A stretch of DNA of 62,887 nucleotides from Pseudomonadales bacterium (GTDB lineage Bacteria; Pseudomonadota; Gammaproteobacteria; Pseudomonadales; Pseudohongiellaceae), in NCBI GenBank assembly GCA_022822865.1, contig JAJDYJ010000081.1, forward strand, positions 1 to 62,887. Reading direction: 5' to 3'. The notes under the pieces are model-generated. The model worked only from the letters and a program-made list of their open reading frames with translations. It did no database searches and had not been told where the DNA came from. The number at the start of each line of letters is the position of its first letter. Position 1 is the stretch's first letter. A program made the position numbers and the translations under genes. Positions 4,003-57,384 of the stretch are shown here, in pieces.

Positions 4003-5760
4003 ATGTTTCACAAGCATTGGGTTGGCGCCGCCCTGTTCTGCGTCTGTTTCGCCGCCGCGCCGGCATTCGCGCAATCGAACGGTCGAGGCGGCGACCTGCT
4101 CGCGGAAATGCGGCCGGTCAGCGGCGACATGCTCGCCGAGCCGGAAGCCGGCAATTGGCTCACCTGGCGCAAGACCTACGACAGCCACGGCTACAGCCCG
4201 CTCGACCAGATCGATACCGACAACGTCGATCAACTCGTGCAGGCCTGGCGTATCCCGCTCGGGCAAGGCTCCAGCATGGCGACGCCGCTGGTGCATGACG
4301 GCGTGATGTTCCTGGCCGACACCAACGATGTCGTAATCGCCCTCGATGCCCGTAGCGGCGAAGAACTGTGGCGCTACGAGCACGCGACCGGCTCCGGCGC
4401 TACCGCCGGACTCAACGGCAAGTTCGGCATCGCGATTTACGGGGAAAACCTTATCGTGCCCACGCTCGACCTGCGTCTGCTCGCGCTGGACTTCCGCACC
4501 GGCGAACCGGTCTGGGAGCATGCCATCGCGGTCACCGCGGACCGCCCAAACCGCTACTCGTTGCGCGCCGCGCCATTGCTCGCCGATGGCGTGATCGTGC
4601 AGGGAGTCACCGCGACGATGGTGCCCGAAGGCGGATTCATCGTCGGACTGGACGCCGGCAGCGGCGAGGAATTGTGGCGCTTCCAGACGGTCGCCGGGCC
4701 GGACGATCCCGGCGGACACACCTGGAACGATATTTCCGGCACGGAGCGGCAGGGAGGCTCGGTGTGGGTCGCCGGCAGTTACGATCCTGAACTCGATCTG
4801 GTCTTTTTCGGCCCGGCGCCTACTTACCATACGGCGCCATTGCTCGATCCGGTGGATATACAAGGCGTAAGCAACGACGCGCTGTACACCAATTCGACGA
4901 TCGCCCTGCGGCCAAAGACCGGCGAGTTGGCCTGGCACTTCCAGCATGTGGCGAACGACCAATGGGACCTGGACTGGTCATTCGAGCGGCAAATCGTCGA
5001 AGTCGACGTAAACGGTTCGCCCCGCAAGGCCGTAATCACGGCGGGCAAAATGGCGCTTTATGACGCACTTGACGCTGCCACCGGCGCATACCTGTTTTCA
5101 GTCGACCTGGGATTGCAGAACCTGGTGGCTTCGATCGACCCGCAAACCGGCGTAAAAAGCATGAATCCGAACGCGCGGCCGAATGCCGAAAGTGCCGTGC
5201 TGATCTGCCCGCAACCCATCGGCGGGCGCAACTGGCTTGCGGCGTCGGTGAATCCGGAAAGCAACATGCTCTTCCTGCCGCTGGCCGAGACCTGCATGAT
5301 GGGAGGGCCGACCGGGGGAGATTCCCAATTGCTCAGCACCGGCGCCGCCATTACGGGCGTGGCGCCGCCCGACAGCGACGGCAATATCGGCCGATTGCAG
5401 GCGATCGATCTCGAAACCCGCGAGCTGGCCTGGAGTTTCCGCGAGTTCATGCCGCCTTCCTCGGCGGTACTCGCAACCGGCGGCGGCCTCGTTTTCGGCG
5501 GCGCCGTCGACCAGTCTTTCAAGGCTTTCGATCAGGCCGACGGCGCAGTTCTCTGGAGTACGGACCTGGGCGACATCGCCGCTTCCTTTCCCATCAGCTA
5601 CAGCGTGGACGGAAAGCAGCACATCGCCCTGGTAGTCGGCCAGGCGGGCCTGCATGCGAGCGCCCTGATCGGCCACGCCATGCAGACATCCGGCGACATG
5701 TCCCGTTTCGGTGGCCTGACCCGCGAAGGCCCGGCCCTGGTGGTCTACGCTCTGCCCTGA
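4003..5760 (+). CDS. PQQ-dependent quinoprotein dehydrogenase (alcohol dehydrogenase-like)
   Basis: A 585-residue periplasmic protein with a signal peptide (cleavage at AFA-Q). It shows the repeated propeller blades of PQQ enzymes, for example 'VVIALDARSGEELWRYEHAT', 'LLALDFRTGEPVWEH' and 'FKAFDQADGAVLWSTDLG'. The region PAPTYHTAPLLDP then 'NDALYTNSTIALRPKTG' occupies the place where methanol/ethanol-type dehydrogenases have GNPSPWNP and GDN..ALD..TG, with the Asp of that second motif retained. No vicinal Cys-Cys disulphide and no C-terminal haem c domain are visible, so electrons must leave through another carrier. The upstream haem c protein is a candidate. GAGGA at 3992-3996 is a suitable ribosome site. 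The substrate (alcohol, aldehyde or sugar) cannot be read from sequence. It closes the five-gene exported cluster; no PQQ synthesis genes are in the window. Confidence 0.9.
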   Translation: MFHKHWVGAALFCVCFAAAPAFAQSNGRGGDLLAEMRPVSGDMLAEPEAGNWLTWRKTYDSHGYSPLDQIDTDNVDQLVQAWRIPLGQGSSMATPLVHDGVMFLADTNDVVIALDARSGEELWRYEHATGSGATAGLNGKFGIAIYGENLIVPTLDLRLLALDFRTGEPVWEHAIAVTADRPNRYSLRAAPLLADGVIVQGVTATMVPEGGFIVGLDAGSGEELWRFQTVAGPDDPGGHTWNDISGTERQGGSVWVAGSYDPELDLVFFGPAPTYHTAPLLDPVDIQGVSNDALYTNSTIALRPKTGELAWHFQHVANDQWDLDWSFERQIVEVDVNGSPRKAVITAGKMALYDALDAATGAYLFSVDLGLQNLVASIDPQTGVKSMNPNARPNAESAVLICPQPIGGRNWLAASVNPESNMLFLPLAETCMMGGPTGGDSQLLSTGAAITGVAPPDSDGNIGRLQAIDLETRELAWSFREFMPPSSAVLATGGGLVFGGAVDQSFKAFDQADGAVLWSTDLGDIAASFPISYSVDGKQHIALVVGQAGLHASALIGHAMQTSGDMSRFGGLTREGPALVVYALP

Positions 5761-31377: not shown

Positions 31378-32676
31378 TTATCCAAACCTCGCCCGCCAGT
31401 CGTCGAGTGGCACGAACCGGCCCTGGTCCACCACGGTGTAGTACAGCCGCTGCATACCCTGCCGCCGCTGCTCGGAAAACGAAACCATCTCGCCAATGCC
31501 GAGATCGTAGTCCCGCACGGTGAAAACCGCCTGTTCCAGCCGGGCGCGGCTGGGGGAGTCGCCCATGCGGCCGAGAATCTCCACGAGCATCTTCGCGTTC
31601 ACGAAGCCTTCGAGGCTGACGAAGCTGCGGTCAAAGGGCACGTAATCCGGCTGGCGCAGGGGTTCCGGGACTTCCGGGCGGTACCGGTCCATCAGTTCGG
31701 CGTATTCCCTGACCACGGGAATGCTCTCGTCTTCGTAGCTCGGCACCACCTGGGAGTTCACCAGATAGCGGGTATAGCGTTCGCTGTCGTCGACGCTGTC
31801 GGTAATGAGCTGCAGCAGGTTCTCGCTGCCGACAAAGGACAGGTTGGCGATGGGGACTTCCAGCCCGAGGTCGATGGCGTCGCGCAGAAACGCCGCGCAG
31901 GCGCCGTAGGCGCCGATACAGATCACCGCGTCGGGGCTGCTATTGCGCAGAATCTCCACCTGTTCGCCCATGCCGCGGCCGTAGGCGGCGCCACGGGTGT
32001 AGGTGGCTTCGCCAACGATCTGCTCCCCCCGGGCGCCGAGAGCCTCGCGGACTCCCGCCCAGCCGCTGCGCCCGTAGGCGTCGGCCTGATAGAAGACGGC
32101 GATCCGGCGCCGGCCGATGCGGAGGAAGTTCTCCACCAGGCCCGCGGTTTCCTCGCGGTAGGAGGCGCGCAGGTTGAACGCGAACTCTCCGTAAGGCGGC
32201 TCCCGCTGGGGCTGGGCGCCGGTGAACGGAAAGAACATGTACACATTCTCTTCCTGGAACTTCTTGAGAATCGGCAGCACCCGGGTAACCGTGGGCGTGC
32301 CCACATAGCCGAACAGGGCGAACACCCGGTCCCGAAGCAGCAGTTCCATGGTGTTCTGCACCGAGGGAACGGGCTGGTAGCCATCGTCATAAAGCCGCAG
32401 CGCAATGCGGCGGCCGCCGACGCCGCCCTGCTCGTTGACCCGGGTGAAACAGGCCTGGGCGCCGCGGTACAACTCGATGCCGAGGCCTCGGGAAGGCCCG
32501 GAAAAGGCGGCGGAAGTGCCCAGCAGAATCTCGTCGGCGGATACGCCTTCGTGGAATCCCGCGGGGGAACCGGCGGTTTCATCCTGGGCGAAAGCCGCGC
32601 CACGGCCAAGCCAGGGCGCGGCCAGGCCGCCCAGGATGCTGGTACGCAGAAACTTGCGCCGGGTCAGTGCTCTCAT
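31378..32676 (-). CDS. periplasmic solute-binding protein (branched-chain amino acid type), Tat-exported
   Basis: A 432-residue protein beginning MRALTRRKFLRTSILGGLAA, a twin-arginine signal (RRKFLR) with cleavage near AFA-Q. Folded export fits a binding protein with a bound cofactor or large ligand. The body matches periplasmic binding protein type 1 / Peripla_BP_6: 'ILLGTSAAFSGPSRGLGIEL', 'ACFTRVNEQGGVGGRRIALR', 'YDDGYQPVPSVQNTMELL', 'ALFGYVGTPTVTRVLPIL', 'RRIAVFYQADAYGRSGWAGV'. Normally such proteins work with Liv-type ABC permeases and ATPases, none of which are here. Instead it is followed immediately by a HAMP membrane protein and an OFA transporter. ATG 32676 excludes an upstream, non-signal extension. 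Confidence 0.9.
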   Translation of the reverse strand: MRALTRRKFLRTSILGGLAAPWLGRGAAFAQDETAGSPAGFHEGVSADEILLGTSAAFSGPSRGLGIELYRGAQACFTRVNEQGGVGGRRIALRLYDDGYQPVPSVQNTMELLLRDRVFALFGYVGTPTVTRVLPILKKFQEENVYMFFPFTGAQPQREPPYGEFAFNLRASYREETAGLVENFLRIGRRRIAVFYQADAYGRSGWAGVREALGARGEQIVGEATYTRGAAYGRGMGEQVEILRNSSPDAVICIGAYGACAAFLRDAIDLGLEVPIANLSFVGSENLLQLITDSVDDSERYTRYLVNSQVVPSYEDESIPVVREYAELMDRYRPEVPEPLRQPDYVPFDRSFVSLEGFVNAKMLVEILGRMGDSPSRARLEQAVFTVRDYDLGIGEMVSFSEQRRQGMQRLYYTVVDQGRFVPLDDWRARFG

Positions 32677-54400: not shown

Positions 54401-54406
54401 ATGCGG

Positions 54407-54697
54407 ATGCTCGAAATTCGTGAGACAGTGGAATACGCCAATTGGTTGGAGGGATTGAGAGATGCTCGGGCTCGGGGTCGCGTTCTTACTCGAATGGATC
54501 GCTTAATGTGTGGAAATCCAGGAGATGTCCGACCAGTTGGAGAGGGAGTATCCGAAATGCGGATCGACTACGGGCCGGGTTACAGAGTGTATTTCAAGAA
54601 GCGGGGCGATGCACTCGTGATTTTGCTGGCAGGCGGGGATAAACGAACGCAAAGCCAAGACATAAGAATGGCACTAAATCTCGCGCGCAACTTGTAG
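54407..54697 (+). CDS. type II toxin, RelE/HigB-like (Gp49 family)
   Basis: A 96-residue protein matching the 'addiction module killer' group of the RelE/ParE superfamily (Gp49/PF05973). Visible motifs: 'WLEGLRDARARGRVLTRMDR', 'CGNPGDVRPVGEGVSEMRID' and 'YGPGYRVYFKKRGDALVILL', ending AGGDKRTQSQDI. Relatives cleave mRNA at the ribosome. I place the start at ATG 54407 (MLEIRE), which matches relatives; ATG 54401 is two codons upstream but overlaps the -10 box. Toxin-first order, with the antitoxin starting 9 bases after the stop, is typical of HigBA-like modules. Confidence 0.9.
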   Translation: MLEIRETVEYANWLEGLRDARARGRVLTRMDRLMCGNPGDVRPVGEGVSEMRIDYGPGYRVYFKKRGDALVILLAGGDKRTQSQDIRMALNLARNL

Positions 54698-54706
54698 GTG
54701 ACGACT

Positions 54707-55045
54707 ATGACTAAAAAAACTCAGACCACACCATTTGATGTGGCCAAGTACCTAAAAACTCCAGAGGACATGGCCGCATATCTGGAAGCCTCTATTGAGG
54801 AATCCAATGGCGATGCGACGATTGTCGCAATGGCGCTTGGCAACATTGCCCGGGCCAAAGGCATGTCGCAAGTAGCGTACGACACCGGCCTATCCCGCGA
54901 GAGCCTGTACAAGGCTCTCTCCGGGGAGCGGAATCCAACATTGGAAACCGTGCTCAAGGTTGTTCACGCTCTTGGCCTCAAACTGCGCGCCGAGGCAGCG
55001 TTCAACGCAAGCATGGCGGAAGAACGCGGCGCTTCGGCGAGTTGA
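54707..55045 (+). CDS. antitoxin of HigA-like type, XRE helix-turn-helix
   Basis: A 112-residue DNA-binding antitoxin. The N-terminus 'FDVAKYLKTPEDMAAYLEAS' is characteristic of the probable addiction module antidote family (TIGR02684-like), and the helix-turn-helix is 'MSQVAYDTGLSRESLYKALS' followed by 'GERNPTLETVLKVVHALGLK'. It would neutralise the upstream toxin and repress the promoter through the palindrome at 54381-54398. ATG 54707 has AGG 8 bases upstream; a GTG at 54698 is an alternative start. Confidence 0.92.
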   Translation: MTKKTQTTPFDVAKYLKTPEDMAAYLEASIEESNGDATIVAMALGNIARAKGMSQVAYDTGLSRESLYKALSGERNPTLETVLKVVHALGLKLRAEAAFNASMAEERGASAS

Positions 55046-55166: not shown

Positions 55167-55757
55167 TTACTTTGTTTCAATTTCGGCGGCTCGAAACAAC
55201 TGAATCAACCTGCCGACTTCTGTAGCAGCCAAGGTTGTACCGAGATTGCTCTTTATCTCGGAGACCATTTCCCCGAAAGTCAGTATTTTTAACGGATTCC
55301 CTCCGATAGCTCGTTGGAATGACTCGTATTCCTCCCAAGTCGATTTTTGTCCTATGACTCTTGTTATCGCCAGCACATGGGTGAATTCGTCCGTTCCAGT
55401 CGCATCCTTTACGGCTTGAATAAACGCCTCTGACCATTTTGGTTTGCAAAGTTCTCTGAAGGATTTCCAGGCTTCCCGTCCTCTAACTGTTTTGTTCTGC
55501 TCAATTGCGTCTATTTCCGAACTTGGTCTGAAACCGCTTTGCCAACTTTTGCAACTCACAGCGTACACGCGTTCTGGACCTTGAAGGTTTGGGTTGTATC
55601 CAAGGACATCAAGATCGCTATGGTTCGAGTCCTGCCTCTTCACGAAATCAGGATGGTCTTTCCTCGGGAGAAATTTTATATTGTGCTGCACAAAGTATCC
55701 TTTATGAATCAGGTACTCTTCAGCGATCTGCTCCAAAATGTCTTCTTTAGTTGCCAT
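55167..55757 (-). CDS. orphan nuclease-like protein (possible PD-(D/E)xK fold)
   Basis: A 196-residue soluble protein, noticeably AT-richer than its surroundings. 'DILEQIAEEYLIHKGYFVQ' at the N-terminus is a common start of restriction-endonuclease-fold proteins. The segment SNHSDLDVLGYNP followed about 12 residues later by VYAVSCKSW could provide D and (S)xK of a degenerate PD-(D/E)xK site; the usual acidic residue before xK is replaced by Ser, so activity is doubtful. Later blocks 'AIEQNKTVRGREAWKSFREL' and 'TDEFTHVLAITRVIGQKSTW' are predicted helices and strand. No methylase or specificity partner is nearby. Its ATG lies inside the 3' end of the truncated CBM9-type gene, so it probably arrived with the event that broke that gene. 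Confidence 0.7.
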   Translation of the reverse strand: MATKEDILEQIAEEYLIHKGYFVQHNIKFLPRKDHPDFVKRQDSNHSDLDVLGYNPNLQGPERVYAVSCKSWQSGFRPSSEIDAIEQNKTVRGREAWKSFRELCKPKWSEAFIQAVKDATGTDEFTHVLAITRVIGQKSTWEEYESFQRAIGGNPLKILTFGEMVSEIKSNLGTTLAATEVGRLIQLFRAAEIETK

Positions 55758-56022
55758 GCAAGCATTTCCACATATCTACTTCGGAAACTGGGTTGGCTTC
55801 CGCGCGCATGTCCGACGGCACATTGTCCGCCGGCTCGTTCTCGATATCGACCGGGACGCGCACCGCCCCGGCCCATTCCGCAGGACCGACGCGCCCATCG
55901 ATCAGCGGCGCGTTCGCGGTGCGGGGAATATCGAGCCTGGAAATATCCTGAGCGGCCGCTCCGGCCGCGAAAACAACGGCAGAGCCCAGAACGAACGATG
56001 CGCCTGATGCCGCCTTTCGCAA
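55747..56022 (-). pseudogene. truncated CBM9/DUF5916-type exported protein, N-terminal fragment
   Basis: About 91 residues remain. A TTG at 56022 behind AAGGGA is a plausible start, giving a signal peptide (SGASFVLGSAVVFAAGAAAQ) and then 'ISRLDIPRTANAPLIDGRVG', PAEWAGAVRVPVD. This is the opening of carbohydrate-binding family 9 domain/DUF5916 outer-membrane proteins ('IPRT..PP.IDG.....W..A..V'), which are normally 700 residues or more. After 'EANPVSEVDMWKC' the frame ends in TAA, overlapping the ATG of the nuclease-like gene by 11 bases. No remainder of the gene is found downstream in this window. It lies 16 bases after the peroxiredoxin-like selenoprotein gene and was presumably co-transcribed with it. 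Confidence 0.65.
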
Positions 56023-56038: not shown

Positions 56039-56602
56039 TTACAGATTGGCTGCCGCTTCCAGGACGAAGGCGAAGTCGGGCCGGTCACGATAGTCTTCTT
56101 CGGCGAACTTCGCCCGAATCACGCCATCCGAATCGATCAGGAAAATGCCCGGATAAGGAACGCCGTAAGCGCGCGAATCCGGTTCATAATCGGTATTCAG
56201 AATGCCCAGCGCATTGACGTGGGTTATGGCCTCGTCATGCAGCAAGGTGAATTCGATGCCCTGGTCTTCTTCGACTTCCTTCAGCGTTTCGACCGAATCG
56301 TAGGTCATCGCCACCACGGACAGACCCATTTCCTCGAACTGTTCCGCAATCTCTGTCAGCTGCACGAGCTGAGAAATGCAATAGGGTCACCAGTCGAATG
56401 AGCGGCTGAGCATGAACAACATGCCGTTGGCGCCCACGAGGTCATCGAAAGTGCGAACTTCGCCGTTCTGGTCTTCCGCCGAAATCGGCGGCAACGCCGC
56501 ACCTGCCGGAAATTCCGACGCCCAGTCGAAATCCTGGGCGAAAGCGGTTCCGGAAAGGAACAGGGCCAGAATCATTCCGGCCAGTGAATATCGGATTTGC
56601 AT
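56039..56602 (-). CDS. exported peroxiredoxin-like selenoprotein (UGA at 56387-56389 read as Sec)
   Basis: A 187-residue protein when the minus-strand TGA at codon 72 is read as selenocysteine. Sequence around it: MLSRSFDW-Sec-PYCISQLVQL, the active site of AhpC/TSA redoxins in which relatives have RS-x-DWC-PYC; here U72-P-Y-C75. ATG 56602 has GGAG 7 bases upstream and yields a signal peptide (MQIRYSLAGMILALFLSGTAFAQ), so the enzyme acts in the periplasm, an unusual place for a selenoprotein. After the UGA: 'EIAEQFEEMGLSVVAMTYDS', 'YGVPYPGIFLIDSDGVIRAK' (thioredoxin-fold strands) to TAA at 56039. Split into two apparent frames of 81 and 108 codons if UGA is taken as stop. Role: peroxide or disulphide reduction. 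Confidence 0.93.
56356..56372 (-). promoter_or_regulatory. bacterial SECIS-like hairpin of the peroxiredoxin-like gene
   Basis: On the minus strand TCAGCT pairs with AGCTGA, six pairs, around CGTGC. The loop starts 21 bases after the UGA and has G in its first two positions. Beyond a C-C mismatch three further pairs can form. Slightly weaker than the other two SECIS candidates. Confidence 0.75.
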
Positions 56603-56691: not shown

Positions 56692-57384
56692 TTACTCCAG
56701 CCCGGACATGAACCGGCTACCGCGGGGCAGGAAATAATTGTCACTGTCCAGCGAAAAAACCACTGAACGCGAGCGGCCCATGATTTCTTCTCTGGGTATG
56801 AAACTGTAAACCCTGCTGTCGGCGCTGCTGTTGCGATTGTCGCCGAGTACGAAATAGCGATCCTCGGGAACGACCACAGGCCCGTAACTGCGGCTGGAAC
56901 CCGGGAATTGCGTCAGCCGCACCTGATGATTGCGCTCGGGCAGAGCCTCTTCGATAATCATGGCGCCGCCGTCCCGCGACAGCACCTCATAGTCCGCCGA
57001 GACGCCGTTGATGATCAGCGCGTTGTTCTGAATCTCGATTCGGTCCCCGGGTACGCCGACGATGCGCTTCACGAGCCGCTTGCGGGCCTGGGCGCTGTCG
57101 ATGATCACGATATCGCCGCGCGTCGGATCGGACAGTTTGGCCAGGGTGACATCGGTAAACGGAACTTTCACGTCGTAGGCGAGCTTGTTGACCCAAACCT
57201 TGTCGCCGTCTACGAGCGTCGGCAGCATGGAAGCGCCGGAAATCGAACTCAGATCGGCAATCGCGCTCTTGAAAAACACGATGGCGCAAAGCAGCAACAG
57301 AAAGTTGCGATTCTCCCGCCAGACATTGCCCAGCCAGCCGGAAAATCGCTCGGAAAAGCCGACCGGCGGCGCCGGTTCATTCAT
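56692..57384 (-). CDS. lepB: signal peptidase I
   Basis: A 230-residue inner-membrane serine protease that removes Sec and Tat signal peptides. One transmembrane helix near residues 27-45. The catalytic Ser is in 'SSISGASMLPTLVDGDKVWV' near residue 53 (S-M), the general-base Lys in RKRLVKRIVGVPGDRIEI near 108, and box E 'DRYFVLGDNRNSSADSRVYS' near 180. It is shorter than the E. coli enzyme (324) and lacks its second helix and large beta insertion, as in many non-enteric bacteria. The start MNEPAPPVGFSERF fits. It is transcribed in the same direction as the selenoprotein gene, with 89 bases between them. Confidence 0.96.
   Translation of the reverse strand: MNEPAPPVGFSERFSGWLGNVWRENRNFLLLLCAIVFFKSAIADLSSISGASMLPTLVDGDKVWVNKLAYDVKVPFTDVTLAKLSDPTRGDIVIIDSAQARKRLVKRIVGVPGDRIEIQNNALIINGVSADYEVLSRDGGAMIIEEALPERNHQVRLTQFPGSSRSYGPVVVPEDRYFVLGDNRNSSADSRVYSFIPREEIMGRSRSVVFSLDSDNYFLPRGSRFMSGLE

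Follow-up and report, generated by a model that had tools for sequence, protein, structure and literature searches.

A predicted exported selenoprotein of the peroxiredoxin-like UxxC type in a gammaproteobacterium related to Pseudohongiella

Contig JAJDYJ010000081.1 (assembly GCA_022822865.1), from a gammaproteobacterium related to Pseudohongiella, was analyzed over a window of 62,887 nucleotides (nt), the whole stretch. Its minus strand carries at 56039–56602 a gene that appears to encode an exported, peroxiredoxin (Prx)-like oxidoreductase with selenocysteine (Sec, U) in its active site. In the reading that we favor, with a probability of about 0.6, this protein is probably peroxide-reducing and recharged by electron flow of the ScsB/DsbD type.

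The open reading frame (ORF) extends from ATG to TAA over 187 codons and contains a single in-frame UGA at residue 72 (56387–56389, minus strand). The same frame is present in 31 Sec orthologues, comprising the window gene and 30 others of its genus with a fetched locus; locus L108, which has no full site, was dropped from the counts. The initial annotation had joined two minus-strand half frames into one AhpC/TSA protein across the UGA, and this holds: a PF00578 (AhpC-TSA) match of 80.9 bits (cut-off 26) covers residues 34–164 and therefore spans the UGA. The active site reads RSFDW-U-PYC. The only Sec and Cys of the protein are U72 and C75 (codon 56378–56380, minus strand), the latter being the probable resolving thiol in U-P-Y-C, and exactly one Cys is found in the mature part of 31/31 Sec orthologues.

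Comparison of homologues supports decoding of the UGA as Sec. TGA aligns at the same codon, followed by an intact second half, in all 31 extracted orthologues, and the Cys relatives have TGC or TGT at this position. The five closest relatives outside the genus (L045–L049), found by a motif-free search, carry RSFDWCPYC, in agreement with the RS-x-DWCPYC site initially ascribed to Cys relatives. RSxDWCP[YF]C is general among the Cys relatives, but a set of 80 loci was picked by this motif, so that its presence among them is circular. The 3.2-Mb genome contains a tRNA-Sec (66.4 bits; anticodon tca according to ARAGORN) as well as SelA (579 bits), SelB (346 bits), and SelD (249.5 bits), each above its curated cut-off, with selA on a different contig from selB and the tRNA-Sec.

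In a survey of 137 genomes of the family, 115 had a match at E ≤ 1e-15. In 67 genomes the orthologue contains a single internal TGA as its only stop, and 38 have an orthologue without a stop across the site that is 49–62% identical to the window protein; two genomes have only site-less fragments and eight match only via a longer paralogue. The 38 genomes were scored by absence of a stop; the Cys codon itself was read in L045–L049 and the named motif-picked loci. selA matches occur in 62/67 TGA genomes vs 13/38 stop-free genomes (Fisher p = 3e-10, with related genomes that are not independent). Among the five genomes of genus g123 that have the protein, the only one with TGA (G334) is also the only one with selA.

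The RNA downstream of the UGA can form a bacterial Sec insertion sequence (bSECIS), UCAGCU-CGUGC-AGCUGA (56356–56372, minus strand), with a 6-bp stem and a 5-nt loop that has G in second position. The loop begins 20 nt after the UGA, and the minimum free energy (MFE) is -12.2 kcal/mol for a 51-base stretch. Bacterial selenoprotein genes as a rule have a bSECIS following the UGA, the listed features being a loop of 3–9 nt, a stem of 4–16 bp, G in the first two loop positions, a spacing of 16–37 nt, and MFE ≤ -7.5 (PMC13188914); the stem-loop in the window agrees with all of them. Codons +6 to +10 (CAG CTC GTG CAG CTG) are invariant in 31/31 Sec orthologues, which comprise 15 distinct sequences in the SECIS region, without a single synonymous change. 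The mean identical-codon fraction elsewhere in the gene is 0.48 (62 codons), and in 33 Cys orthologues the same codons vary, with identical fractions of 0.33–0.54.

Because the amino acids Q-L-x-Q-L alone favor a stem, we compared the sequences with synonymous recodings, 2000 for each. The Sec set held 47 sequences, of which 29 are distinct in the region: the 31, two paralogues from the same genome, and 14 belonging to other families within the order. The Cys set held 91 (83 distinct). All six pairs are kept in 28/29 distinct Sec sequences, for which recoding gives an expected 3.2 (maximum 11), vs 4/83 distinct Cys sequences, for which 4.3 are expected. The Cys gene L061 is also able to form the stem. 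Across the 29 distinct Sec sequences, pair 22–30 is C-G in 25 and U-A in four, with no mismatch, pair 21–31 is G-C in 25, A-U in three, and G-U in one, and the outer pair shows five standard types. Paired cells amount to 99.4%, and the covariation score is 0.346 vs 0.124 for shuffled and at most 0.098 for slid alignments. A covariance model run against the whole genome places three matches at E < 1e-11, the window gene (56339–56389) and two fused paralogues, all three of which had served to train the model; the next match comes only at 0.47, and the SECIS model therefore lists no other selenoprotein in this genome.

Several observations weigh against this interpretation. Of the five covariation measures, two are no higher than in shuffled alignments: 81/500 shuffles reach the observed count of pairs with changes on both sides, and 123/500 that of further pair types. 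An Rfam search gave 0 matches in the window. Fold energy taken by itself is weak for SECIS (mean z -0.93 for Sec and -0.22 for Cys sequences); since comparison with synonymous recodings gave such weak z-scores, conservation and covariation were needed as well, and judged by these sequence patterns the SECIS is under selection. Finally, five of the 67 TGA genomes, draft metagenome-assembled genomes (MAGs) that are 79–92% complete, have no selA match, and selA is present in the 13 stop-free genomes mentioned above.

Were the UGA a true stop, the locus would be a pseudogene or two split genes with a restart at GTG 56365, where the mechanically called ORF does begin. The degraded or frameshifted second half that such decay should leave in relatives was looked for and is absent: the TGA is fixed and the second halves are intact in 31/31. 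Moreover, the ratio of nonsynonymous to synonymous substitution rates (dN/dS) past the UGA, computed position by position against the window gene for 14 of the 30 orthologues, is low, 0.06–0.38 in 11/14 pairs (the 0.38 pair has very low dS) and saturated and undefined in three. Together with Cys at the UGA position in relatives, the conserved and covarying SECIS, and the co-occurrence of selA, this leaves a true stop hardly any credit. UGA readthrough without selenium can occur, and a code change or near-cognate readthrough might accordingly place Trp or Cys at residue 72. However, one paralogue (L018) and 1/31 orthologues end in TGA, so UGA still terminates, and the genome has tRNA-Sec, SelA, SelB, and SelD along with a SECIS under selection; we consider selenium-free decoding very improbable. 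The selenoprotein assignment made at the outset is thus upheld by the aligned TGA, the SECIS, the Sec genes, and selA co-occurrence, and decoding of this UGA as Sec through SelA/SelB/SelD/tRNA-Sec and the adjoining bSECIS is, from these comparisons, close to certain.

The protein begins with a predicted signal peptide (residues 1–22; 56537–56602, minus strand), which has a basic start and a hydrophobic core; an AxA site precedes the predicted cleavage between AFA and QDF (MQIRYSLAGMILALFLSGTAFA followed by QDF). A simple rule, a heuristic rather than SignalP, finds a similar pattern in most of the 30 Sec orthologues scored out of 31 (L170, with no start in range, was left out). The earlier proposal of export fits this AxA-type N-terminus and its recurrence, and the mature protein is very likely periplasmic. 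Exported selenoproteins are known, among them E. coli FdnG and periplasmic NiFeSe hydrogenases. To call the present one unusual, as had been done, was an overstatement: the same genome has three further AhpC/TSA genes with an in-frame TGA and a signal peptide recognized by eye, and a UxxC Prx-like selenoprotein family is already listed (PMC13188914, PMC9312934). Our queries of the open-licence literature returned no report of a selenoprotein in Pseudohongiella and no text with the phrases periplasmic, exported, or secreted selenoprotein in combination.

The structure model gives the window protein a peroxiredoxin/thioredoxin fold, in line with the fold of classical peroxiredoxins; Sec72 opens a long helix, and Cys75 follows one turn on. 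The peroxidatic motif named for peroxiredoxins, PxxxTxxC (PMC13188914), is absent. RSxDW-U-P[YF]-C stands in its place, with Phe at position -3 in 31/31 Sec orthologues and Leu (29) or Met (2) at position -7. The initial description as peroxiredoxin-like is thus apt for likeness, but the protein is not a classical peroxiredoxin. Because it combines a peroxiredoxin-like fold with this replacement, it fits the known selenoproteins published as "Prx-like thiol:disulfide oxidoreductase, UxxC". Listings of them come from the Sargasso Sea (22 sequences; PMC1088965), from Global Ocean Sampling (GOS) data under the name "Prx-like 1" (225 sequences; PMC2398784), and from reviews of 2022 and 2026 (PMC9312934, PMC13188914), and they share PF00578, U-x-x-C, and Cys homologues with the window protein. 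The likeness to this family (representative WP_010940744.1) is one of domain and motif description. The sections of the published accounts that describe the family mention neither an export signal nor a donor, whereas a signal is predicted in the window protein. PrxU and the SelL-related redox proteins are also of AhpC/TSA type with known Sec forms; Sec-containing Prx carries TxxU (PMC13188914), as PrxU does, vs UxxC here. The NCBIfam scores lie far below the cut-offs (peroxi_PrxU 20.2 vs 270; SelL_rel_redox 38.8 vs 120).

Since PxxxTxxC is absent, the motif does not imply peroxidase activity, and UxxC also fits a reductase; both points count against peroxide reduction. The main competing view makes the protein a thiol:disulfide reductase or isomerase of the periplasm that uses U-P-Y-C in the manner of TlpA, ResA, or CcmG, and not a peroxide scavenger. 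In its favor, a CxxC/UxxC site at the helix start replaces PxxxTxxC, ResA-type chains are interspersed with Prx chains in the Foldseek list for the fold, and G-x-P-x-P-G, which we take to resemble the cis-Pro loop of TlpA-type thioredoxins, is present in 31/31 Sec forms. The published family name, thiol:disulfide oxidoreductase, points the same way (PMC9312934, PMC13188914). We regard a reductase or isomerase as possible, if somewhat short of probable, and the chances that peroxide is the main substrate of the predicted oxidoreductase as about even.

On a tree built from 138 domain sequences (47 with Sec and 91 with Cys) and rooted only at its midpoint, the Sec/Cys label requires five changes, of which at least four fall on well supported branches; support for several inner branches is modest. 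The window's genus, with its 31 Sec sequences, forms the sister group of 36 Cys sequences from Pseudohongiella and relatives, and the two groups together lie within a set of Sec lineages. Because of that placement, it is more likely, as far as the tree goes, that Cys replaced Sec in Pseudohongiella than the reverse. The same protein exists in this family with Sec in 67 genomes and without a stop in 38, and selA tracks the Sec form; this amounts to a natural experiment on the advantage of Sec over Cys in the periplasm, for which a candidate donor can be named. As a side observation, the Pseudohongiella-like Cys clade includes a sequence from a contig titled Klebsiella pneumoniae MAG (L095), a record that probably bears the wrong name.

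Sec in an oxidizing compartment raises the question of how the selenol stays usable, and the initial annotation had called for a search for a periplasmic reductant. This search yielded candidates: one ScsB/DsbD-like transporter and DsbD-alpha-like domains fused to two paralogues. Four of the 16 PF00578 matches in the genome have one internal TGA, the window gene and three more. Two of these, on C95 and C78 (L018 and L019), combine a signal peptide recognized by eye and RSADW-U-PYC with a C-terminal domain containing YQACDDxxCY, which scores 23.8 and 24.5 bits, respectively, against DsbD_N (PF11412). The third, on C16 (L027, 1417–1947, plus strand), is a TSG-U peroxiredoxin, also with a signal peptide by eye; a stem-loop, GGCGCUG-CGUGA-CAGUGCC, lies downstream of its UGA. 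Acidobacteria have Cys versions of the fused architecture; 16 loci were inspected there, and L135 and L145 were excluded from the alignment. Both Cys of the C-terminal domain are kept in 14/14 aligned relatives, 11/14 of which match DsbD_N at E ≤ 0.001. Within the order, L070 (1405–2634, plus strand) encodes a Sec Prx/DsbD_N fusion (33.1 bits) with no evident signal peptide; about 750 bases beyond it, the genome in question (G280) carries another homologue with TGA. In a Hyphomicrobiales MAG (L151), an ORF (4576–5460, plus strand; start choice assumed) begins 14 nt past the stop of a Cys homologue; it has a signal peptide by eye and DsbD_N as its sole Pfam match (75 bits).

DsbD_TM is matched only once in the genome, in a protein that also has two DsbD_N stretches and, at its C-terminus, a thioredoxin domain, a layout that we read as ScsB-like. 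When this protein was compared by tblastn with the homologue loci (flanks 1.5 to 4 kb), only L151 matched. The fused and neighboring DsbD-alpha-like domains are the best hint in the sequences to the electron donor. A number of results speak against this assignment. The DsbD_N scores of the two fusions from this genome are just under the Pfam cut-off of 25, nothing in the 3.5-kb window locus matches the ScsB-like protein, and the window contig has no second PF00578 match (TlpA itself was not searched for). A profile of the fused C-terminal domain matched no PDB chain; because of this, and because the Prx domain filled the result list of a fold search with the fusion protein, the domain is identified through Pfam alone. 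On balance, a DsbD/ScsB-type donor is about as likely as not.

Fusion of a selenoprotein redox domain to a further redox domain is also described for TsoB, a rhodanese/DsbD fusion-like selenoprotein (PMC13188914), and GOS Prx-like domains are joined to unknown domains (PMC2398784). Unlike these, the two paralogues pair a UxxC Prx-like domain with a DsbD-alpha-like domain; the family descriptions consulted do not mention a DsbD-alpha fusion, and as the GOS paper reports other Prx-like fusions (PMC2398784), we make no claim that the fusion is unpublished. PprX of Caulobacter is an envelope Prx-like protein reduced via ScsB and TlpA (PMC5403849). The window host likewise combines a predicted envelope Prx-like protein with a ScsB-like transporter. 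The cited part of the PprX description does not mention Sec, in contrast to the Sec of the window protein (PMC5403849).

In the favored mechanism, the Sec72 selenolate would attack peroxide (or a disulfide), and Cys75 would resolve the selenenic acid to a selenosulfide. The selenosulfide would then be reduced by electrons that cross the inner membrane via the ScsB/DsbD-like protein and arrive directly or through a carrier resembling TlpA, by analogy with the ScsB-TlpA-PprX route of Caulobacter. The two paralogues carry their own DsbD-alpha-like domain, which would place the electron donor on the same polypeptide. More tentatively, the genus may run a periplasmic selenium redox circuit in which several exported selenoproteins detoxify peroxides and one ScsB-type donor keeps them reduced; its members would be the window protein, the two Sec Prx-like/DsbD-alpha-like fusions with the reductase on the same chain, and the Sec TSGU peroxiredoxin.

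Upstream of the selenoprotein gene lies a signal peptidase gene (Peptidase_S26; 56692–57384, minus strand) that is matched in 29/31 Sec-genus loci, the window included, and in none of the other loci. Downstream is an exported CBM9-like/DUF5916 gene (55747–56022, minus strand; TTG start inferred), which is matched in 20 loci, with a Pfam match in L157 and L166. It is shortened here, ending after about 98 matched residues; L153 matches to the same end, and L157 and L166 are longer. We attach no function to this synteny. At the end point of the truncated gene lies a 196-residue ORF (55167–55757, minus strand), possibly an insertion, that has no Pfam or PADLOC match. Two small ORFs at 54401–55045 (plus strand) presumably resemble a RelE/HigB-type and HigA-type pair. 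ARAGORN also reports a tRNA-Ile with anticodon aat, unusual in bacteria and perhaps spurious, at 31462–31553 (plus strand). At L188, the open frame around the SelD match has 773 residues, a length that would accommodate the Ndh-SelD fusion described in GOS data.
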